From positions 1-64,000 of the forward strand of contig JAHFDG010000013.1 of NCBI GenBank assembly GCA_023249105.1: a stretch of 64,000 bases of DNA, read 5' to 3'. The notes under the pieces were generated by a model. That model saw only the letters and a program-made list of their open reading frames with translations, searched no databases and was not told the DNA's origin. Origin of the DNA: Candidatus Methanoperedens sp. (GTDB lineage Archaea; Halobacteriota; Methanosarcinia; Methanosarcinales; Methanoperedenaceae). Shown here one piece after another: positions 46,023 through 57,260 of the stretch (its first letter is position 1; every line of letters starts with the position of its first letter). Made by a program: the position numbers and the translations under genes.

Positions 46023-48782
46023 ATGAAACCAGAGGAAAAAGCAAGGCAGCAAATTGACCAAATGCTTGAAGCTGCTGGCTGGAAGATTCAGGATTTGCGC
46101 GAGTTTAATCTTGGAGCATCTCGCGGCGTTGCTATCCGTGAATTCCCGCTAACATCTGGCGCTGCTGATTATTTATTTTTTGTTGATAGGGAAGCTGTCG
46201 GGGTGGTTGAGGCTAAGCCGCAGGGAACTACATTAAGCGGGGTTGCAGAACAATCGGAAAAATACTTAAGCGGAATTCCAGAAGGGCTTCCTCATGTGAA
46301 GGAACCTCTCCCTTTTTCCTACGAGAGCACCGCTATAGAAACATATTTCCGGGATACAAGAGACCCCGATACGCGCTCACGCAGGGTTTTTGGTTTTCAT
46401 AAGCCTGAAACCCTCAAAAAGTGGAGTTCCCAGGTTGATACTTTAAGGGCAAGACTCAAAGACTTACCTTCTTCAAGAAATCTGAATAAAGAGGGTCTGA
46501 GAGATTGCCAATTTGAAGCCATCGAGAACCTTGAACGCTCGTTTGCAGAGGGAAGACCAAGAGCTCTTATCCAGATGGCAACAGGAAGCGGAAAGACCTA
46601 TACAGCAGTGAGTTTCATTTACCGCCTGATAAAATTCGCTGGTGCAAAAAGAGTGCTCTTTTTGGTGGACAGGAGCAACCTGGGGCGCCAGACGAAAAAG
46701 GAATTCCAGCAGTATGTTACGCCTGATGACGGCAGGAAGTTCACCGAGCTTTACAATGTCCAGCACCTGACGTCGAATACCATCGATCCTGTGAGCAAGG
46801 TTTGTATCACCACAATCCAGAGGCTTTATTCAATGCTCAGTGGAGAGGCAGAGTTTGAGCCTGAGAATGAAGAGCCGTCACTTTTTGAGATATCACCTGA
46901 TGGAGCGCCCAAAGAAGTTTCGTACAATCCGCAGATTCCGATTGAGACATTTGATTTTATTGTAACTGATGAATGCCATCGTTCAATCTATGGTCTCTGG
47001 AGGCAGGTGCTTGAATATTTTGATTCTTTCATTATTGGACTAACTGCTACACCATCCAAGCAAACACTGGGATTTTTTAACCAGAATCTTGTCATGGAAT
47101 ACAGCCATGAGAGGGCTGTTGCTGATGGCGTGAATGTGGGTTATGAGGTTTACCGCATCAAGACAGATATCACTGAAAAAGGAAGTATTGTTGAAGCTGG
47201 GGATTTTGTGGACAAAAGGGATAAGCTCACAAGAAAGGTGCGATGGGAACAACTTGATGAGCCTTTTGAGTATGCCGCCGACCAATTAGACCGAAGTGTA
47301 GTTGCGAAAGACCAGATACGGACTGTTATCAGAACCTTCAAGGAAAAGCTCTATACCGAGATATTCCCAGGCAGAGCAGAGATTCCAAAGACACTTGTTT
47401 TTTCCAAGGATGATTCCCATGCAGAGGATATCGTGCATATCATGCGGGAGGAGTTCGGGAAGGGGAATGATTTCTGCAAGAAGATAACCTACAAAACCCT
47501 TGGCGAGAAGACCGAAGACCTGATTGCAAGCTTCCGTAATTCCTACAACCCGCGCATAGCCGTGACCGTGGATATGATTTCAACAGGTACGGATATTAAA
47601 CCGCTTGAATGCCTGCTGTTCATGCGCGATGTCAAGTCGCGGGTGCTCTTTGAGCAGATGAAAGGGCGCGGCACAAGGACGATATCTTCAACTGATTTTA
47701 AAGCAATTACTCCCGGCGCTTCAACCAAAACACATTTCATGATAGTGGACGCTGTGGGCGTGTGTGAGAACGACAAGACCGATTCAAGACCGCTTGAGCG
47801 AAAGAAGAGCGTGCCGTTTGACAAGCTCATCATGTCTGTTGCTCTCGGCAAGAGGGATGAGGATACCATTACCTCGCTTGCGGGAAGGCTTGCGCGGATG
47901 GATAGGGAGATAGAAGAAAAGGACAGGAAAGAGATTCAAAAGGCTGCGGATGGTAAATCATTAAAAGAGCTCATTAATAAGCTTCTGGATGCGGTTGACC
48001 CTGATAAAAAAATTGAAAAAGCGCAGGAGATTTTTGGAACAAAAACGCCAACAGATGAACAGGTTAAGAAGGCAGGCGAAGAACTTGCAAAGAGTGCCTG
48101 CACACCGTTTGATGCTCCGAAGCTCAGGAACACCATAATTGAGATAAAGAAAAGAAATGAGCAGATTATTGATACTGTGAGCAAGGACACTGTGAACTTT
48201 GCAGGTTTTGATGAACAGGCAAAGATAAAGGCCCGAACCATCGTGGATACCTTCAAGAAATTCATAGAGGAGAACAAGGATGAGATTACAGCTCTACAAA
48301 TCATTTACAGCAAGCCATACGGCAGGCGCCACCTGACATACGAAGAGATCAGAGAGCTTGCCGAAGCGATAAAAAAGCCGCCTTACCAGCTTACGCCGGA
48401 AATTCTCTGGCAGGCGTATGAACAACTGGATAAATCAAAGGTGAGAGGCGCAGGCGCACAGAAGCTATTGACGAATATCATCTCGCTGATACGTTTTGCC
48501 TCAGGAAAGAGCGATGTGCTTGAGCCTTTCCTGGAAACGGTGAACCAGCGCTTCGAGCGATGGCGCGAGGAGCAGGAGGGGGCAGGGGTGCGTTTCACGG
48601 AGGCGCAGATGGAGTGGCTTGTGATGATAAAAGACCATATTGCATCGTCGCTGAGTATTGGAATTGAGGATTTTGAGCTTGCGCCGTTCTTTGAGAGAGG
48701 CGGGGCTGTGAGGGTGTATCAGCTTTTTGGAAAGGGATTGAATAATATCTTAGAAGAGCTAAATGAGGTACTTGCGGTATGA
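46023..48782 (+). CDS. hsdR: Type I restriction endonuclease subunit R
   Basis: Protein of 919 aa. The N-terminal PD-(D/E)xK nuclease shows D49 and E63-A64-K65 (VVEAK). The helicase core has ATGSGKTY near 185-192 and DECH near 316, followed by SF2 motifs including KGRGTR. The C-terminal part resembles the EcoEI R C-terminal domain. It cleaves unmethylated DNA after ATP-driven translocation when joined to HsdM/HsdS. hsdS and hsdM lie 3 kb and 7 kb downstream, separated by the accessory modules. Confidence 0.95.
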   Translation: MKPEEKARQQIDQMLEAAGWKIQDLREFNLGASRGVAIREFPLTSGAADYLFFVDREAVGVVEAKPQGTTLSGVAEQSEKYLSGIPEGLPHVKEPLPFSYESTAIETYFRDTRDPDTRSRRVFGFHKPETLKKWSSQVDTLRARLKDLPSSRNLNKEGLRDCQFEAIENLERSFAEGRPRALIQMATGSGKTYTAVSFIYRLIKFAGAKRVLFLVDRSNLGRQTKKEFQQYVTPDDGRKFTELYNVQHLTSNTIDPVSKVCITTIQRLYSMLSGEAEFEPENEEPSLFEISPDGAPKEVSYNPQIPIETFDFIVTDECHRSIYGLWRQVLEYFDSFIIGLTATPSKQTLGFFNQNLVMEYSHERAVADGVNVGYEVYRIKTDITEKGSIVEAGDFVDKRDKLTRKVRWEQLDEPFEYAADQLDRSVVAKDQIRTVIRTFKEKLYTEIFPGRAEIPKTLVFSKDDSHAEDIVHIMREEFGKGNDFCKKITYKTLGEKTEDLIASFRNSYNPRIAVTVDMISTGTDIKPLECLLFMRDVKSRVLFEQMKGRGTRTISSTDFKAITPGASTKTHFMIVDAVGVCENDKTDSRPLERKKSVPFDKLIMSVALGKRDEDTITSLAGRLARMDREIEEKDRKEIQKAADGKSLKELINKLLDAVDPDKKIEKAQEIFGTKTPTDEQVKKAGEELAKSACTPFDAPKLRNTIIEIKKRNEQIIDTVSKDTVNFAGFDEQAKIKARTIVDTFKKFIEENKDEITALQIIYSKPYGRRHLTYEEIRELAEAIKKPPYQLTPEILWQAYEQLDKSKVRGAGAQKLLTNIISLIRFASGKSDVLEPFLETVNQRFERWREEQEGAGVRFTEAQMEWLVMIKDHIASSLSIGIEDFELAPFFERGGAVRVYQLFGKGLNNILEELNEVLAV

Positions 48783-48981: not shown

Positions 48982-50205
48982 ATGACTTTTGTGGATATAG
49001 AAGAAGTTTCGAAGGAGAAGAACTCTTTAGTTCGTTCATGCAGAATAAAAATTAATGGAGGTACTGTAATAACTCCCTCAAGGGCTATCAGCGTCACCAA
49101 GTCCAACATTGAAGAGCTGAAAGTATCCTCAACATTAATTGACAATCAATTCTTACCTTTTGGTGAGGTGTTTGTTCGCGTTCCTTTGGATTTCTTGAGT
49201 AAAATAATAGATGATGATAGTGCTGGGCAGAAATTCAGTTCCTTGCTATCAAATCGTTTAAATCAATTGAAAGATGCAGGATTAGTCCCATATTTGATTC
49301 TTTCTTTGGTCGATAATGAAGATAATCCTTATAACAAGATGCCTCCACCACAAATTTTAGATCTTCTTTTTAATTTTATCTGGGGAACCCCAAACAATTC
49401 TATTATTGTACCCCCTCTTATTGGGGTTCTCAACGAGGATAAGGAATATATTAAATATATTGCTGCTTTGGAGAAAAGGCAGAAGGAACGTATTGATAAA
49501 AAGCCTCTGCCCATGATGGCAATTATTCCTCCAGTGTACCGATTAATTGCTCCAGAACTTCTGGATAGATTTTGGAAAATAGGATGCCGCATCATTGCTT
49601 TCGATTTAGGGAATAAAAAATATAGTGCATATGGTTATGTCATTGAGAAACTTCATTCTGAATTAAATGTATTGAGTAAACGAGATAAAGAACCTTATAT
49701 TCTACATGCTTTAAATTCAAAGTTGAAAACTGGAAAGGGAGGTACAAGTAGAATCAATGATTTATTGGGGACAGGTTTTGGATTCGATTCTTATGCACCT
49801 AATCATGGCGGGCGTCTAAAATGGGTTCCTCCTCCAGCACCTCCAACTGAATCTAACCATTTGTTTGATAGAAAAACTTATGGCTTCTTTTCACTTGCTG
49901 ATGTTATCTCCAATAAGACCATAGATCAAAAAGATATTCTGAACACTAATGCATTTAAGAGTGTAGAATTAGCTTCAATTGAAGATCAAAAACCTGAAAG
50001 AATAAAGCGAATCTGTTCAGCATATAATCTTGAAAAAACTATAGGAGAGATTCGAAATTTTCCAGAATTGATAAATAATGAAGAATTAATTAAATATTTT
50101 TCCAAAAAGGAACGTATTCAAGATGACCTGAAACTGATGAAAAATATTTCAGACAGAGGAATAATCTCTAAACAGCAAAAGAATCTGGATAAGTGGTTTG
50201 GATGA
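48982..50205 (+). CDS. Unrecognised TIM-barrel-like protein, module 1
   Basis: Protein of 407 aa, paralogous to the protein at 54433. Shared motifs in order are a KINGGTVITP-type N-terminus (~23-32), AIIPPV (180-185), IIAFDLG (204-210), GFGFDS (265-270) and LFDRKTYG (294-301). Regular alternation of strands and helices suggests a TIM barrel. The spacing of the central and GFDS motifs recalls tRNA-guanine transglycosylase-type enzymes, but their DSGGFQ site and zinc cysteines are absent. GAGG at 48974-48977 precedes the ATG. It overlaps the next gene by ATGA. Function unknown. Composition is more AT-rich than hsdR. Confidence 0.8.
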   Translation: MTFVDIEEVSKEKNSLVRSCRIKINGGTVITPSRAISVTKSNIEELKVSSTLIDNQFLPFGEVFVRVPLDFLSKIIDDDSAGQKFSSLLSNRLNQLKDAGLVPYLILSLVDNEDNPYNKMPPPQILDLLFNFIWGTPNNSIIVPPLIGVLNEDKEYIKYIAALEKRQKERIDKKPLPMMAIIPPVYRLIAPELLDRFWKIGCRIIAFDLGNKKYSAYGYVIEKLHSELNVLSKRDKEPYILHALNSKLKTGKGGTSRINDLLGTGFGFDSYAPNHGGRLKWVPPPAPPTESNHLFDRKTYGFFSLADVISNKTIDQKDILNTNAFKSVELASIEDQKPERIKRICSAYNLEKTIGEIRNFPELINNEELIKYFSKKERIQDDLKLMKNISDRGIISKQQKNLDKWFG

Positions 50206-50684
50206 AAATAAATGAAAGCTCTTTGACTTCAACTCAACTCGCGATAATTACGCTATTAAAAAGTAAAGATATCACTGGAAAAGATTTTGCTCCAATTCCA
50301 GGTAACATTCATTTGGTAAAAGAGATTTTCGCAATAAAGAATACAGATATCGGAAATCAGTTGCTTGATGAATTGAACTTTGAGCCAGATAATTTTGGCC
50401 CTTTTGATGAGACAATCTTTGCTGCTCTAGATGATTTAAAGGATGCTGGGCTGGTGGAGTATATTCAATCAAAAAATAACACCAAAATCAAATTAACCAA
50501 AGAAGGAGAGCATCTTACGGAAAAAATTTGGAATAAACTTCGTGAGGATGTGAAAGCTGTTATTACATATGTAAAAATGAACTTTAACCATATTTCTTCG
50601 GAAAAATTACTTGACAGGATTTATTCAGTTTATCCGGAGATGGCGAAATATTCCCTATCAAAAGTAGCCAAAAAATATCAATGA
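50202..50684 (+). CDS. Winged-helix-like 'GPF' protein, module 1
   Basis: Protein of 160 aa starting MKINESSLTSTQLAII; the ATG overlaps the preceding TGA. The pattern of hydrophobic helices, then FEPDNFGPFDETIFAALDDL, then LVEY…KIKLTKEGE looks like a winged helix of the type seen in SocA/DUF4065-like antitoxins. YSVYPEMAKYS near the C-terminus matches FTFPEMTKES in the module 2 homologue. It is likely the antitoxin or regulator of the adjacent PIN protein. Confidence 0.7.
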   Translation: MKINESSLTSTQLAIITLLKSKDITGKDFAPIPGNIHLVKEIFAIKNTDIGNQLLDELNFEPDNFGPFDETIFAALDDLKDAGLVEYIQSKNNTKIKLTKEGEHLTEKIWNKLREDVKAVITYVKMNFNHISSEKLLDRIYSVYPEMAKYSLSKVAKKYQ

Positions 50685-50699
50685 TAGGAGATGCAATTT

Positions 50700-51173
50700 G
50701 TGGCAACTCTATTTGGAGATACATGTTTCTTGATTGGATTAAAAGATAAAACTGACCAGCATCATAAAGAGGCAACAAAAATCTGGAAGAAGTTACTAAA
50801 TACAAATGTAGTAAAGGGATTAAATCACGTTACTATTTCAGATTTTGTATTGATTGAAATTTTTCAGGGTTTACAGAAGCGTGCAGGATTTGAAACCGCT
50901 GCTGCTGTATATAGTGAACTAACCGATAATTGTAGAGTTCAACAGGTAACTTTACCAATGGTGCAACAGGCTATAAATCAAAAACTCGAACCTTATCGCA
51001 ATCATAAAACAAAACAACCTCCAATTGGTCTTGTGGATGCAATCTCTTTAGTAACAATGGATAAGTTAAGAATTTCATGGATTCTCAGTTTTGATGAGGG
51101 TTTTGACCGGATTCCATTAGTTAAAAGGATTCATAATGAAAATACGCTGCCATATAATAAATCTGTTCGATAA
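50700..51173 (+). CDS. PIN-domain protein (VapC-like), module 1
   Basis: PIN-fold protein of ~157 aa, a predicted metal-dependent RNase. Acidic residues are seen in FGDTCFLIG, DFVLIEIFQG, GLVDAISL and SFDEGFDRI. The GTG at 50700 is preferred because GGAG (50687-50690) is at proper spacing from it, whereas it touches the in-frame ATG at 50691. Overall length and motif order match VapC toxins. Confidence 0.8.
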   Translation: MATLFGDTCFLIGLKDKTDQHHKEATKIWKKLLNTNVVKGLNHVTISDFVLIEIFQGLQKRAGFETAAAVYSELTDNCRVQQVTLPMVQQAINQKLEPYRNHKTKQPPIGLVDAISLVTMDKLRISWILSFDEGFDRIPLVKRIHNENTLPYNKSVR

Positions 51174-51197
51174 GACTTTAAAAAAGTGGAAATTTTG

Positions 51198-51590
51198 ATG
51201 AACGTTTTACTGTCAGTTAAGCCTAAATATGCTGAAAAAATAGTCGAAGGAAAGAAAAAGTACGAGTTCAGGAGAGCTATTTTTCAAAAACAAAATATAG
51301 AGAAGGTCTATATTTATTCCAGTTCGCCAGTGAGTAAGATCGTTGCCGCATTTAAGATAAAAAAAATCTTAAAGGATTCCCCGGAAAAGATATGGACGCT
51401 ATGCCAAAAATATGCGGGCATCTCAAAAAAAGATTTTTTCGCTTATTTTAAAAATTCAGAAATGGCGTTTGCGATTGAGATTGGATATGTCGATAGTTTC
51501 AAAGAGCATATAGACCCATTTAAAATCATTGAAAATTTCAAGCCACCCCAGTCGTTTTATTACTTACCATTTAATTTTCAACAAACCTAA
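51198..51590 (+). CDS. ASCH-domain protein
   Basis: Protein of 130 aa beginning MNVLLSVKPKYAEKIVEGKK. This and the following KYEFRR are the ASCH-family start, with YIYSSSPVSKIVAAFKI next. ASCH domains are predicted RNA-binding or nuclease modules related to PUA. It lies between PIN and hsdS. It may be part of the accessory cargo. Confidence 0.82.
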   Translation: MNVLLSVKPKYAEKIVEGKKKYEFRRAIFQKQNIEKVYIYSSSPVSKIVAAFKIKKILKDSPEKIWTLCQKYAGISKKDFFAYFKNSEMAFAIEIGYVDSFKEHIDPFKIIENFKPPQSFYYLPFNFQQT

Positions 51591-51766: not shown

Positions 51767-53221
51767 ATGAATGAGGATGCGTTGCCCGGAAGCTGGGTGT
51801 GGACGAGTATAAAGGAAATTTGTGATTTGATAAATGGGAGAGCTTTCAAACCTGAGGAGTGGTCAACCCAAGGATTACCAATCATCAGAATACAGAATCT
51901 CAATAATATCAATACAGATTTCAATTATTGTAATTTTGAAGTAGAGGAAAAATACCTTGTAAATAATGGACAACTTCTATTTGCGTGGTCTGGTACTCCA
52001 GGAACATCATTTGGAGCGCATATATGGAATAGAGGAGAAGCAGTTCTTAATCAGCATATTTTTAAAGTGCAAATCGATGAGAATTGTATAAATAAGATTT
52101 TTTTCTTGTATCTGATAAATCGAAATATATCTGAATATATCAAAAAAGCGCATGGGACAGCAGGATTAGCTCATATCACCAAAAACAAATTTGAAAATTC
52201 AACAATCCTCATCCCCCCTCTCCCCGAACAGCGCCGCATCGTAACGAAGCTCGAGGAGTTATTCACAAAACTTGACGCAGGGGTGGAAGCGCTGAAAAAG
52301 ACGCAGGCGCAGTTGAAGCGCTACCGCCAATCCATCCTCAAAGCCGCCTGCGAGGGAAAGCTCGTGCCCACCGAGGCTGAAATGGCGAAAGCAGAGGGGC
52401 GCGCCTACGAGCCTGCGGATGTGCTGTTGACACGCATCTTACAGGAGCGGCGCAAAAAAAGCAAGGGCGCTAAGTACAAAGAGCTTTCGGCGCCGGATGC
52501 TAATGGTTTGCCGGAGCTGCCGGAGGGGTGGTGCTCAGCTTTTTTGGAACAAATTGCAGAAATTAATCCAAAATTACCCAATAATGGTCTTAACGACGAT
52601 ACTGAAGTTTCTTTCTTGCCAATGAAAGTAGTTGAGGAACAGACTGGGAGATATGATTTGTCCATAATTAAAAAATATATCGAAGTAAAAAAAGGATATA
52701 CATCTTTTATAAATGGGGATATTATTTTTGCAAAGATAACGCCTTGCATGGAAAATGGAAAAATTGCAGTTGTGGAGAATTTGAAAAATGGAATTGGGTT
52801 TGGTTCTACTGAATTCCATGTGATTAGGATATTTGGAAATGACATTTCAAGGACTTATATTTTTAATTTTATACTACAAGAAAATTTCAGGAGAGATGCT
52901 CAGAGGAGTATGACTGGTTCGGCAGGTCAATTAAGAGTTCCTGCAGATTATTTACGACAAACTCCAATTCCCCTCCCTCCTCTCCCCGAACAGCGCCGCA
53001 TCGTCGCAGAGGTCGAGCGCCGCCTCTCTGTGGCTGACGGGGTTGAGAGAACCGTGGAGCAGAGCCTTATGCAGGCTAAGAGGCTGCGCCAGAGCATATT
53101 AAAGAAGGCGTTCGAGGGCAGGCTTGTGGCGCAGGATGCGAGTGATGAGCCTGCGGGCGTGCTGCTGGAGAGGATTAAGGCTGAGAAGGCGCGGACGGGA
53201 GAGAAGAAGAGGAAAAGATAA
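51767..53221 (+). CDS. hsdS: Type I restriction specificity subunit S
   Basis: Protein of 484 aa with two target recognition domains, starting at LPGSWVWTSI and LPEGWCSAFL. Each is followed by a conserved PPLPEQRRIV helical spacer (RQSILKAACEGKL and RQSILKKAFEGRL). It sets the two half-sites of the bipartite DNA target. The two TRDs are AT-rich while the spacers are GC-rich, a mosaic suggesting domain exchange. GGGAGG precedes the start. Confidence 0.94.
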   Translation: MNEDALPGSWVWTSIKEICDLINGRAFKPEEWSTQGLPIIRIQNLNNINTDFNYCNFEVEEKYLVNNGQLLFAWSGTPGTSFGAHIWNRGEAVLNQHIFKVQIDENCINKIFFLYLINRNISEYIKKAHGTAGLAHITKNKFENSTILIPPLPEQRRIVTKLEELFTKLDAGVEALKKTQAQLKRYRQSILKAACEGKLVPTEAEMAKAEGRAYEPADVLLTRILQERRKKSKGAKYKELSAPDANGLPELPEGWCSAFLEQIAEINPKLPNNGLNDDTEVSFLPMKVVEEQTGRYDLSIIKKYIEVKKGYTSFINGDIIFAKITPCMENGKIAVVENLKNGIGFGSTEFHVIRIFGNDISRTYIFNFILQENFRRDAQRSMTGSAGQLRVPADYLRQTPIPLPPLPEQRRIVAEVERRLSVADGVERTVEQSLMQAKRLRQSILKKAFEGRLVAQDASDEPAGVLLERIKAEKARTGEKKRKR

Positions 53222-53301
53222 AATGTTGTATAGCAATAATACTTTCACACCGCGCGCATACCAAAAGGGCATATATTTGAGCAGCCTTGAGGATTTTGAA
53301 A

Positions 53302-53889
53302 ATGGATATAAAAAAAAGGATACTCGAAAACCTGACTGAAACTCAGAAATACACTCTGCTACTCCTGAGTGCAAACAATTATGAGCCTGTCAAAGGCAAA
53401 CTATGGTTTCAAAAGGAGCTTTTTCTCTTAGCCAAGAACAGTGATGAGCTTGCCGAACAAACCGATTTCGAAGCAGATTTTATGGGCCCGTATAGTGAAA
53501 GTGCCGAGGAGGAACTTGAGCAGCTTGAGTTTGCGAAAGTTGTCGAAAAAGAAGGCAATAAGCTAAAATTGACTGACCTGGGCAAGGATATAACGAAAAT
53601 ACTTGAAAAAAATTCCAGCGAAGAAGAAAAGGAAATGATTGAAGATTTCAAGGCTGAACTTAATGATTTAACTGAAGATGAGCTGCTTGGTTTCATATAC
53701 TTTACTTTTCCCGAAATGACCAAAGAATCTATAAAGATTCAAAAAATCAAACCAAAAAGAAAAAATATAGCATTAAGTTTGTATGCAAAAAGTAAAATTA
53801 GTCTTGGGAAAGCACTGGAAATTGCAGAAATGAATATTGATAATTTTATTAAAGAAGCTAAATTGAAAGGGATTCAAGTATATTCATAG
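53302..53889 (+). CDS. Winged-helix-like 'GPY' protein fused to UPF0175 antitoxin domain, module 2
   Basis: Protein of 195 aa starting MDIKKRILENLTETQK; GAGG at 53289-53292 supports ATG 53302. The N-terminal part is homologous to the module 1 protein: LWFQKELFLLAKN, DFEADFMGPYSESAEEELEQ, KLKLTDLGKDI, and FTFPEMTKES. The C-terminal ~45 residues (ALSLYAKSKISLGKALEIAE and on to GIQVYS) resemble UPF0175, the antitoxin partner of DUF3368 PIN toxins. A DUF3368-like PIN follows 10 nt downstream. Confidence 0.78.
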   Translation: MDIKKRILENLTETQKYTLLLLSANNYEPVKGKLWFQKELFLLAKNSDELAEQTDFEADFMGPYSESAEEELEQLEFAKVVEKEGNKLKLTDLGKDITKILEKNSSEEEKEMIEDFKAELNDLTEDELLGFIYFTFPEMTKESIKIQKIKPKRKNIALSLYAKSKISLGKALEIAEMNIDNFIKEAKLKGIQVYS

Positions 53890-53899
53890 GCGCTTCTCC

Positions 53900-54385
53900 A
53901 TGAAAATCATAGATTCATCTCCAATCATAGCTTTTTATTCAGAACTTAGCAACCCTAATTTGTTACATAAGTTTATAGAGTTAGGATATGAACTTAGGAT
54001 ACCAAAAGGTGTTTTCAGCGAATTAGAGAACGGAAGAACCTCAGAAATATTAAAATCAAGTATAGCAGATGGAAAAATTAAAATTTTGGCAGATTTATCA
54101 TCGGAAGAAACTTTACATTTTAAAAACAGGCACCCATATCTTGGAAAGGGGGAAATTGAAGTAATCCTATGGTGGCTTAAACTGAAATCAGACGCTAACA
54201 AACATTATTGCATCCTTGATGATAAAAAAGCGAGAAAAGTAGCCGGAAAATATAATGTAGTTTTCACAGGAACCATAGGTTTAATAGATCTGTTGCATAA
54301 AAAACAAGCTATTACCCAGAATGAGCGCATGGAATTTATTACTAAACTTTCAGTTTCGGGATTCAGGATAAAGGGGATTTCCTGA
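53900..54385 (+). CDS. DUF3368-type PIN-domain protein, module 2
   Basis: Protein of 161 aa. IIDSSPIIAFYSEL, RIPKGVFSELENG, GKGEIEVILWW and CILDDKKARKVA follow the DUF3368 PIN pattern. VFTGTIGLIDLLHKK is the usual GTxGLL segment. It is probably an RNase toxin neutralised by the UPF0175-containing neighbour. The upstream gene ends 10 nt before. Confidence 0.85.
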   Translation: MKIIDSSPIIAFYSELSNPNLLHKFIELGYELRIPKGVFSELENGRTSEILKSSIADGKIKILADLSSEETLHFKNRHPYLGKGEIEVILWWLKLKSDANKHYCILDDKKARKVAGKYNVVFTGTIGLIDLLHKKQAITQNERMEFITKLSVSGFRIKGIS

Positions 54386-54432: not shown

Positions 54433-55596
54433 ATGTCAAACCATATTGAGTTCAAAAAGGTGTGCCCTGATGATGATACGTTATATGTCACCAAAGAACT
54501 CCGCATTAATGGGAAAAATTTAACGACACCAATAAAATCGCTGGGCTTAAGCTCAAAGCTGGTACTTAATGATAAAATAAAAGGAATAAATGAGTTTTAT
54601 AAAAAATTCTCTTTAGATGAAAACTTAAAGAAGAATTCGATTTATAGAGTTCTGGGTTCTCCTGAGAAATTGAGCGATCTAAATTATAAATTCAACTCTT
54701 TGGTTAGAAAAACAGATACTAATAGGGAGATTAATCTTTGTTTTATAGAATACGATGATGCGAATTATCCGGAAAAGAAACCATTGGAGTTTATTTTGGA
54801 TACAGCATATGAATATTCTGATATTACTCCTCTACCGATCATATCAAATATAGCCCAGCGTATTGATTCTGAAGAGAAATTCGCTAAATACATGAAATTT
54901 TTAAAAGAGTCTCTTGAAATAATAGAAACTTTGAATCATAAGCCTATAATGGGAATAGTACCGCCTGTACAATTCTATATTAAAGATATTGTTGAGTTTT
55001 ATGCGAAAAAAGGTATTGATGCTTTTGTATTTGATTTTGATGGGAAAACACCATTAAGTATGCCTCAGGTTATTCGAAGTTTTATGCGTTCTTTAAAGGA
55101 AAATGAATTATTGGAGAATAGTTTCATACATTCAATTAATATCAATCAGGGACGATTCAATAAAGAAGCTAATGTTGTTGGTGCAAAAGATATTCTTTCT
55201 TTTGGGCTTGGTTTTGACAGTATGGGGGAAAGACACAAACCATTAAAAGGCCCGAAAGAATTTTTTGAAAAATTGAAAAATCGGAAAGATAATAGGCTCA
55301 GGCTATTTAATAAAAAAGATTATGGATATTATAGATTAGGAGTTAGTGAAATAGATGAAATTTATCCAATTGATTCAATTATTAAACGAGAATCTTTTGG
55401 CAGTGAAAACTCCGATTTAAGGTCTCTACAAAAAAATTTCAATCTGGAGCAAACAGGACTTGAAGCTATTCGGCTTAGGGAAATCATAAGTAATCAGGAA
55501 TCAAAAGAGTATCTATCCCATAAAACACAAGTCAAAAAAGAGGATTTTAAAAAGATTATAAAGATGAAAAAAGAAGTTTCACAAAAACACACCTAA
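54433..55596 (+). CDS. Unrecognised TIM-barrel-like protein, module 2
   Basis: Protein of 387 aa, paralogue of the protein at 48982. Shared motifs are ELRINGKNLTTP (22-33), GIVPPV (174-179), FVFDFDG (198-204), GLGFDS (258-263) and LFNKKDYG (291-298), all in the same order and spacing. There is no signal peptide, membrane helix or known catalytic motif. In this module the gene is last, after the winged-helix and PIN genes, whereas in module 1 it is first. Function unknown; see the TGT-like comment for the module 1 protein. Confidence 0.8.
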   Translation: MSNHIEFKKVCPDDDTLYVTKELRINGKNLTTPIKSLGLSSKLVLNDKIKGINEFYKKFSLDENLKKNSIYRVLGSPEKLSDLNYKFNSLVRKTDTNREINLCFIEYDDANYPEKKPLEFILDTAYEYSDITPLPIISNIAQRIDSEEKFAKYMKFLKESLEIIETLNHKPIMGIVPPVQFYIKDIVEFYAKKGIDAFVFDFDGKTPLSMPQVIRSFMRSLKENELLENSFIHSININQGRFNKEANVVGAKDILSFGLGFDSMGERHKPLKGPKEFFEKLKNRKDNRLRLFNKKDYGYYRLGVSEIDEIYPIDSIIKRESFGSENSDLRSLQKNFNLEQTGLEAIRLREIISNQESKEYLSHKTQVKKEDFKKIIKMKKEVSQKHT

Positions 55597-55649
55597 TCGA
55601 CATTTTTAACTTAAAATTTTCAAAACTTTTGATGATATTATGGTGAACA

Positions 55650-55805: not shown

Positions 55806-57260
55806 ATGGCAAACGAATCCTCAACAATCGTGCAGCGCCTCTGGAATTACTGCAACGTCCTCCGCGACGACGGCGTGAGTTATGGCGATTACGTGGAACA
55901 GTTGACCTACCTCTTGTTCTTGAAAATGGCTGACGAACAGACAAAGCCTCCCTTCAACAAGCCATCAACAATCCCGGCAGGTCTTGACTGGAAGAGCCTT
56001 GTTTCAAAAGATGGAGATGCTCTTGAGACCCATTACCGCCACATCCTTGAGACGCTTGGAAAAGGAAACGGGATGCTTGGCGTCATATTCAGGAAATCCC
56101 AGAACAAGATTCAGGACCCTGCAAAACTCCGGCGCCTGATTGAACTCATAAACGACGAGACATGGATGGGACTTGACATCGATGTGAAAGGCGACATCTA
56201 CGAAGGGCTTCTACAAAAGAATGCTGAGGACATAAAAAGTGGCGCAGGACAGTATTTCACACCAAGACCGCTAATCAAGGCTATGGTCGAGGTCATAAAA
56301 CCACAGGCTGGTATGACAATTTGTGACCCGGCATGCGGCACAGGCGGTTTCCTGCTTGCGGCGCATGATTATATCTCTAAGCATTCGATGGACAAGGAGC
56401 AGAAAAAGTTTCTCAGGTTCGATACATTCAAGGGATACGAGATAGTTGACAACGCAGCTCGCCTGTGTGTAATGAATCTATACCTGCATGGAATTGGCGG
56501 GGAGGATAGCCCCATAATAGTAACTGATACACTTGCCTCAGACCCAGGAGACCGCTTCGATATCGTTCTCACCAATCCCCCTTTTGGCAAGAAAAGCAGC
56601 TATACAATTGTAAACGGGGAAGGGAAAGCCGATAAAGAATCTCAAACTTATGAACGCCAGGATTTCTGGGCGACCACATCAAACAAACAATTGAACTTCC
56701 TCCAGCATGTAAAAACGCTACTGAAGATAAACGGAAAAGCCGCCATTGTCGTTCCGGACAATGTCCTCTTTGAAGGCGGCGCCGGCGAGACTGTAAGAAG
56801 AAAGCTGCTGCAGGAGTGTGATGTGCATACACTTCTGAGGCTGCCAACCGGAGTGTTTTACGCACAGGGTGTAAAAGCCAACGTGCTTTTCTTTGACAGG
56901 AAACCTGCTAGTGAAAAGCCGTGGACAGAGAAGCTCTGGATATATGATTTAAGGACAAACCAGCACTTCACGCTCAAGACAAACACTCTGAAATATGAAG
57001 ACCTTCTTGATTTCATCAAATGTTACAATCCAGAGAATCGCTTCAATCGGGCTGAAACAGAAAGATTCAAAGCATTCAAATATGATGAACTTCTGCAGCG
57101 CGATAAGTTAAGCCTTGACATATTCTGGCTTAAGGACGACAGCCTTGAAGATTCCGAGAATCTCCCTGACCCTGATGTGATTGCACGGGATATCGCGGAA
57201 AACCTTGAATCTGCGTTAGAGCAGTTTGCGGGCATCTCCGAGGTTCTTGGGGAAAAATAA
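55806..57260 (+). CDS. hsdM: Type I restriction-modification methyltransferase subunit M
   Basis: Protein of 484 aa, an N6-adenine methyltransferase. The helical N-terminal HsdM domain (~1-150) is followed by QYFTPRPLIKAMV, SAM motif DPACGTGGF near 174 and catalytic NPPFG near 257. It methylates the recognition site with HsdS. The gene lies last in the locus, an unusual distance from hsdR. Confidence 0.95.
   Translation: MANESSTIVQRLWNYCNVLRDDGVSYGDYVEQLTYLLFLKMADEQTKPPFNKPSTIPAGLDWKSLVSKDGDALETHYRHILETLGKGNGMLGVIFRKSQNKIQDPAKLRRLIELINDETWMGLDIDVKGDIYEGLLQKNAEDIKSGAGQYFTPRPLIKAMVEVIKPQAGMTICDPACGTGGFLLAAHDYISKHSMDKEQKKFLRFDTFKGYEIVDNAARLCVMNLYLHGIGGEDSPIIVTDTLASDPGDRFDIVLTNPPFGKKSSYTIVNGEGKADKESQTYERQDFWATTSNKQLNFLQHVKTLLKINGKAAIVVPDNVLFEGGAGETVRRKLLQECDVHTLLRLPTGVFYAQGVKANVLFFDRKPASEKPWTEKLWIYDLRTNQHFTLKTNTLKYEDLLDFIKCYNPENRFNRAETERFKAFKYDELLQRDKLSLDIFWLKDDSLEDSENLPDPDVIARDIAENLESALEQFAGISEVLGEK

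Follow-up and report, generated by a model that had tools for sequence, protein, structure and literature searches.

Why should a gene whose product recalls a tRNA-guanine transglycosylase (TGT) lie inside a type I restriction-modification (R-M) operon, and could that product still act as one? The question was raised by an open reading frame in a 64,000-nucleotide stretch of Candidatus Methanoperedens DNA (contig JAHFDG010000013.1, positions 1 to 64,000), hereafter the window, for which an earlier note had proposed a divergent TGT-like TIM barrel with a possible link to the DNA-modifying protein DpdA. We call its product protein A and the product of its paralogue protein B; each belongs to a small module of three genes set among the host R-M genes:

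46023..48782, + strand: HsdR of the host type I R-M system (context; EcoEI_R_C 2.9e-41, ResIII 3.9e-38)
48982..50205, + strand: protein A, predicted TGT fold with a degenerate active site, 407 aa (AlphaFold2 and Foldseek)
50193..50684, + strand: winged-helix antitoxin-like protein of module A, 163 aa, DarG-C/Panacea-like (PADLOC, Pfam and PDB profile)
50691..51173, + strand: PIN-domain nuclease of module A, 160 aa (Pfam PIN 8.9e-10; acidic residues seen in sequence and alignment)
51767..53221, + strand: HsdS of the host type I R-M system (context; Methylase_S 1.1e-33)
53287..53889, + strand: winged-helix antitoxin-like protein of module B, 200 aa, with a C-terminal UPF0175 domain (UPF0175 7.5e-8, PDC-M19A 1.2e-10)
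53900..54385, + strand: PIN-like nuclease of module B, 161 aa, PDC-S70/DUF3368-like (PDC-S70 1.9e-18)
54433..55596, + strand: protein B, TGT-fold paralogue of module B, 387 aa (homologous to protein A; same family profile)
55806..57260, + strand: HsdM of the host type I R-M system (context; N6_Mtase 1.9e-71, PADLOC MTase_I 1.7e-199)

The last 13 nt of the protein A gene also belong to the winged-helix gene, and the PIN gene starts 6 nt after the latter. Module B has a different gene order (winged-helix, PIN, TGT-fold) from module A, in which the TGT-fold gene comes first. Directly after module A lies a gene for an ASCH-domain protein (window 51186-51590) that matches the PADLOC candidate PDC-M11B (E 5.5e-50), a further embedded candidate.

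Predicted fold and sequence relationships

The open reading frames of proteins A and B were confirmed, and homology between the two proteins spans the whole of both sequences (21% identity, BLASTP E 4e-11; 18% identity within the 27-sequence alignment). The motifs MMAIIPPV, GCRIIAFDLG and GFGFDS of protein A are placed as the earlier note said, and protein B has the same order with MGIVPPV, FVFDFDG and GLGFDS. These motifs are not chance resemblances, because their columns are conserved across 27 homologues (alignment A3): the P183 column holds Pro in 23 of the 27 and the G267 column Gly in 26, every sequence has Asp or Asn at residue 208 (D in protein A), and D269 of GFDS is Asp in 24 and Asn in the other three. 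Elsewhere in the same alignment, no variation is seen at E62 or N349, the Asn of N245 is kept in 26, T31-P32 is almost invariant, and H275 is present in most members. Protein A also has two TGT features absent from the earlier note, namely the N-terminal TP motif (RIKINGGTVITPSR) and the C-terminal 'HN..E' helix (SAYNLEKTIGEIR). Its nearest named record is a 92% identical protein in a Candidatus Methanoperedens MAG (locus L008).

No Pfam, NCBIfam, PHROG or PADLOC family model was found for protein A or protein B, and the TGT profile PF01702 did not match A, B or the 13 members of set A2. Searches against PDB sequences with phmmer and hmmsearch returned only noise (PPR proteins, autotaxin). Matches to the PADLOC model PDC-S02 (E 0.002-0.009; 0.0035 for A) covered about 40 residues and were set aside.

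The AlphaFold2 model of protein A, built from the 27-sequence alignment, was confident (mean pLDDT 85.3, pTM 0.87), with low confidence in the loop 277-290 and the last 15 residues. When this model was compared with the PDB by Foldseek, the best 50 matches were all tRNA-guanine transglycosylases (E 9e-11 to 5e-9, probability 1.00), led by 3gc4 (E 9.2e-11) and including the archaeosine TGT 1iq8 (E 3.3e-9). TM-scores by query length were 0.50-0.56. The rmsd was large (about 7-8 Å), indicating that the relation to TGT is remote. The third match in the Foldseek viral library was an uncharacterised protein from Vibrio phage nt-1; DpdA2 was described in that same phage (PMC6884629).

Weak sequence signals lead to the same superfamily. 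When the family profile was searched over 393 archaeal genomes of the phylum, the weak matches beside the clear homologues were one archaeal TGT, one TGT-like protein with DSGGFQ, and six proteins that, from their sequence, we take to be archaeosine synthases (ArcS); the printed ArcS alignments fall in the C-terminal region. Such an enrichment is not expected by chance, since TGT-superfamily genes are few per genome (three in that of the window). These three are a bacterial-type TGT (G000:C76:45082-46143, PF01702 E 5e-139), an archaeal TGT (C95) and a 624-aa open reading frame with a C-terminal PF01702 match (C27), so that tRNA modification is covered elsewhere in this genome. In L151, a more remote relative linked to a winged-helix protein, CxCxxC survives, and this part matches the TGT profile (E 2e-5, within a small set); the structure model of L151, from five sequences, was poor (pLDDT 47) and was set aside.

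In profile-profile comparisons, hhalign paired the TP motif of the family with the TP motif of TGT profiles and the HN helix with the HN helix, so that the segments are collinear, but the probabilities were weak (3-26%), and the homology claim thus rests on the fold and the genome-wide profile matches. With AlphaFold2 and Foldseek yielding neither a different fold nor a lack of TGT matches, the outcomes set beforehand as refuting it, the TIM-barrel proposal stands. The predicted fold and the collinear motifs place protein A in the TGT superfamily as a divergent member.

The degenerate active site

The loss of the general-base motif and zinc cysteines remarked on in the earlier note extends beyond protein A: DSGGFQ and CxCxxC are absent in all 27 homologues, whereas the DSGGFQ pattern was found in 15 of 16 true TGTs. 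That note had also looked to a conserved Asp at GFDS for support. The Asp is indeed conserved, yet it is most likely not a catalytic residue. In TGT the nucleophile is the second Asp of GxDxFD. hhalign places the GFD of the protein A family on the GCD of archaeal TGT, that is, on the first Asp of GxDxFD, and the model, in which helix 260-266 is followed by G-F-D and then a short strand, agrees with this register. D269 therefore most likely matches the structural first Asp, and GFDS as the source of the catalytic Asp was rejected. The nucleophile position falls on residue 272, in a register taken from the profile alignment and the secondary structure of the model, and is Gly, Ala or Ser in all 27 sequences. 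As the general base, nucleophile and zinc site are all gone from the 27 sequences, canonical TGT-type base exchange by protein A is very unlikely, judging from these residues.

A recurrent gene set in methylation-based defence operons

Protein A has regular partners. Its winged-helix neighbour matched DarG (7.5e-7), PDC-M19A (3.8e-6) and LmuC (3.4e-5) in PADLOC, and Pfam Panacea below the cut-off (0.0037). A winged-helix profile found DarG in the PDB (7yk3, E 1e-5), the resemblance being to the DarG C-terminal region, and Panacea (PF13274) matched 2 of the 14 winged-helix members at E <=0.01, below the cut-off. The module B winged-helix protein is homologous to that of module A (50193-50684). 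Nine of the 14 members have a UPF0175 domain; in module B this domain scores above the Pfam cut-off and adjoins the PIN-like gene, which matches PDC-S70 well and both Pfam PIN (0.0052) and DUF3368 (0.023) below their cut-offs. The acidic residues of PIN are kept in the alignment. UPF0175 (COG2886) is a predicted antitoxin family for PIN toxins (PMC2701414), and PDC-S70 is an unvalidated PADLOC candidate with a PIN domain, described as mainly archaeal (PMC12988326).

In nearly all loci, those of the most divergent homologues included, a winged-helix gene for 160-200 aa adjoins the TGT-fold gene, and in most a PIN gene adjoins both. Across 18 module copies, the pairwise distances of the winged-helix, PIN and TGT-fold proteins were closely correlated (r = 0.92, 0.92 and 0.87; as high in 0 of 5000 permutations), and the correlations remained 0.69-0.83 without close pairs. 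Species history is not a sufficient explanation, because the two TGT-fold copies in the window share no more than 18% identity. The three genes thus form a conserved, co-diverging set, and no description of this combination was found in the open-licence literature.

The R-M setting, which the earlier note had thought a DpdA-like role would suit, is real and broader than stated. At least six loci have a type I R-M host (the window, L008, L065, L066, L071 and L061/L062), among which L061/L062 represent a second subfamily with the order HsdM, Zn protein, winged helix, TGT-fold and HsdS. Four loci have an Hma host (L069, L072, L073 and L080); counting L067, where the module lies beside a gene judged DUF1156-like from its sequence, brings the total to five. 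The host of L076 is Druantia-like, consisting of a large methyltransferase and DruE. The gene set is repeatedly lodged inside methylation-based defence operons, and several loci, such as L068, L074 and L078, have no recognised R-M neighbour.

Other arrangements were also observed. Three haloarchaeal TGT-fold genes (L070:8745-10531, L081:8946-10663 and L114:7956-9640) stand without winged-helix or PIN neighbours, none being recognisable in L070 and L081; each is convergent with a gene for about 155 aa, whose product is cysteine-rich in L070 and L081. Two further haloarchaeal loci (L154:4305-6560 and L155:3965-6277) encode a winged-helix protein, a small PD-(D/E)XK-like protein and a CxCxxC protein of 430-450 aa, possibly the same architecture with another nuclease. 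A winged-helix gene and a truncated PIN gene remain, with no TGT-fold gene, at L145:5200-6160 and L146:5285-6272, which are decayed modules; the former lies inside a type I R-M operon. At L066:5438-7285, a GmrSD type IV restriction gene occurs within the type I R-M locus of the module. Among the viral contigs, 50,697 phage genomes and 72,556 plasmids scanned, the sole match was one Haloarcula plasmid, on which the TGT-fold copy is annotated as hypothetical.

Proposed role, rival readings and known systems

We consider that protein A probably belongs to a back-up defence module that has gone unrecognised. The form of it that we prefer, with somewhat less than even confidence, is drawn by analogy with PrrC, which is embedded in a type IC R-M operon (PMC3874165). 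The PIN protein would be a latent RNase effector, and the winged-helix protein would act as an antitoxin that restrains it, in B-type modules via the UPF0175 tail. The TGT-fold protein would be a barrel that has lost catalysis while retaining a pocket for a nucleic acid or base, and would serve as sensor or adaptor, holding PIN or aiming it at tRNA or DNA-bound substrates. Should the host R-M system be inhibited or bypassed, the TGT-fold protein would release PIN and the infected cell would be stopped. In the window, the putative RNase genes do sit between HsdR, HsdS and HsdM, and they lie likewise inside type I R-M operons in other loci. What weighs against the back-up reading are the several loci without an R-M neighbour, the lack of partners in L070 and L081, and the Panacea matches below the cut-off. 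The invariance of E62 and N349 and the near-invariance of N245 could, moreover, reflect an undiscovered enzymatic activity and so argue against a dead scaffold. A more novel reading, to which we give a small share of belief, is a hitherto undescribed type of defence module whose pseudo-transglycosylase recognises a base or nucleic acid in the old catalytic pocket and licenses the PIN RNase in R-M, Hma and Druantia-like hosts, the signal being, for example, viral DNA that evades restriction through deazaguanine modification, or altered tRNA.

Among the rivals, a selfish three-gene element of the toxin-antitoxin kind survives best, and we regard it as rather unlikely. R-M operons would be its safe landing place, and the TGT-fold protein a second antitoxin or chaperone-like component with no functional tie to R-M. 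The occurrence of the same set in unrelated hosts and in loci with no recognised defence host would fit such an element, as would the two divergent copies within one operon of the window and the decayed copies L145 and L146; that it is found again and again between the genes for subunits of methylation-based systems, on the other hand, suggests more than random landing.

That the TGT-fold protein still catalyses a reaction, but one of altered chemistry, seems improbable to us; it could, for instance, be an N-glycosidase that acts on tRNA or DNA and yields a product for PIN to cut. Such an activity would account for the conservation of E62, N245, D/N208, D269 and, mostly, H275, all of which the model places on barrel strands or close to them. 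However, the TGT general base and nucleophile are missing from every homologue, and E62 and D269 appear, from the model, to be near strand starts on the side away from the pocket.

We assign a similarly low likelihood to a sensor of replicating DNA that is recruited by the sliding clamp, with the C-terminal tail docking the TGT-fold protein on PCNA. The tail of protein A, QKNLDKWF, resembles a PIP box and is disordered in the AlphaFold2 model. PIP-like C-terminal motifs occur in 9 of the 27 homologues, as against 2 of 292 background proteins (Fisher 3e-9, with homologues that are not independent and patterns chosen after the sequences had been seen). That a third of the homologues have such a tail is a hint of recruitment by the DNA clamp, but the tail is absent in Methanosarcina-type members and in protein B of the window, and it may be a docking peptide for another partner. 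As for protein B, it ends in ...SQKHT (window 55540-55600) and its close relative in L008 in ...SRKHSQLTLF; a stop codon stands in the window where the relative reads on, leaving B without the PIP-like QLTLF tail.

A DpdA-like transglycosylase inserting 7-deazaguanine into DNA as a self mark, the DNA-modifying role that the earlier note had raised, is hardly credible even though it would suit the fold and the defence setting and homologues of TGT have been reported from Dpd systems and from BREX-related 'BRC' systems (PMC12839542), because the GFDS Asp is most likely structural, the positions of both catalytic Asp residues and the zinc site are lost, and no Dpd family match appeared among the ten proteins of the locus in PADLOC.

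Compared with known systems, protein A shares with TGT and archaeosine TGT (PF01702; 3gc4, 1iq8) the TIM barrel, the N-terminal TP motif and the C-terminal HN helix, in the same order, and differs in having no DSGGFQ, nucleophile Asp, CxCxxC zinc site or PF01702 match. The strongest sequence echo among the known proteins compared is that of ArcS, in the C-terminal 'N.EQ..E....I.EE.L..Y...K' region; this alignment spans only about 45-65 residues, and the ArcS matches have 520-550 aa, whereas protein A, with about 400 aa, has no room for the extra domains. ArcS is itself a TGT-superfamily member that is not known to carry out base exchange. The TGT homologues of Dpd and BRC defence (PMC6884629; excerpt of PMC12839542) have a TGT fold and a defence setting in common with protein A, which differs in that no Dpd genes were matched at its locus and its catalytic residues are missing; no pairing with PIN is mentioned in that excerpt. 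A TGT fold can now be named, by prediction, for a protein family without a model in any library searched.

The partner genes have their own counterparts. In PADLOC, the PIN of module B matches PDC-S70 and the winged-helix proteins match PDC-M19A, both unvalidated candidates, and the TGT-fold third gene has no model; these two candidates, catalogued separately, belong together with that third gene. The UPF0175 tail of module B and the winged-helix body, which resembles the DarG C-terminal region, recall UPF0175(COG2886)-PIN pairs and Panacea/DarG antitoxins, from which the modules differ by a conserved TGT-fold gene and by Panacea matches below the cut-off. Lastly, like PrrC, the anticodon nuclease of the type IC R-M operon EcoprrI (PMC3874165), the module places a putative RNase inside a type I R-M operon; unlike PrrC, it has a PIN nuclease with separate winged-helix and TGT-fold partners, and none of its proteins matches the PrrC family in Pfam or PADLOC. 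With the gene set recurring in three kinds of methylation-based defence, it can now be asked directly whether a latent PIN RNase protects archaeal restriction systems in the way that PrrC guards EcoprrI.
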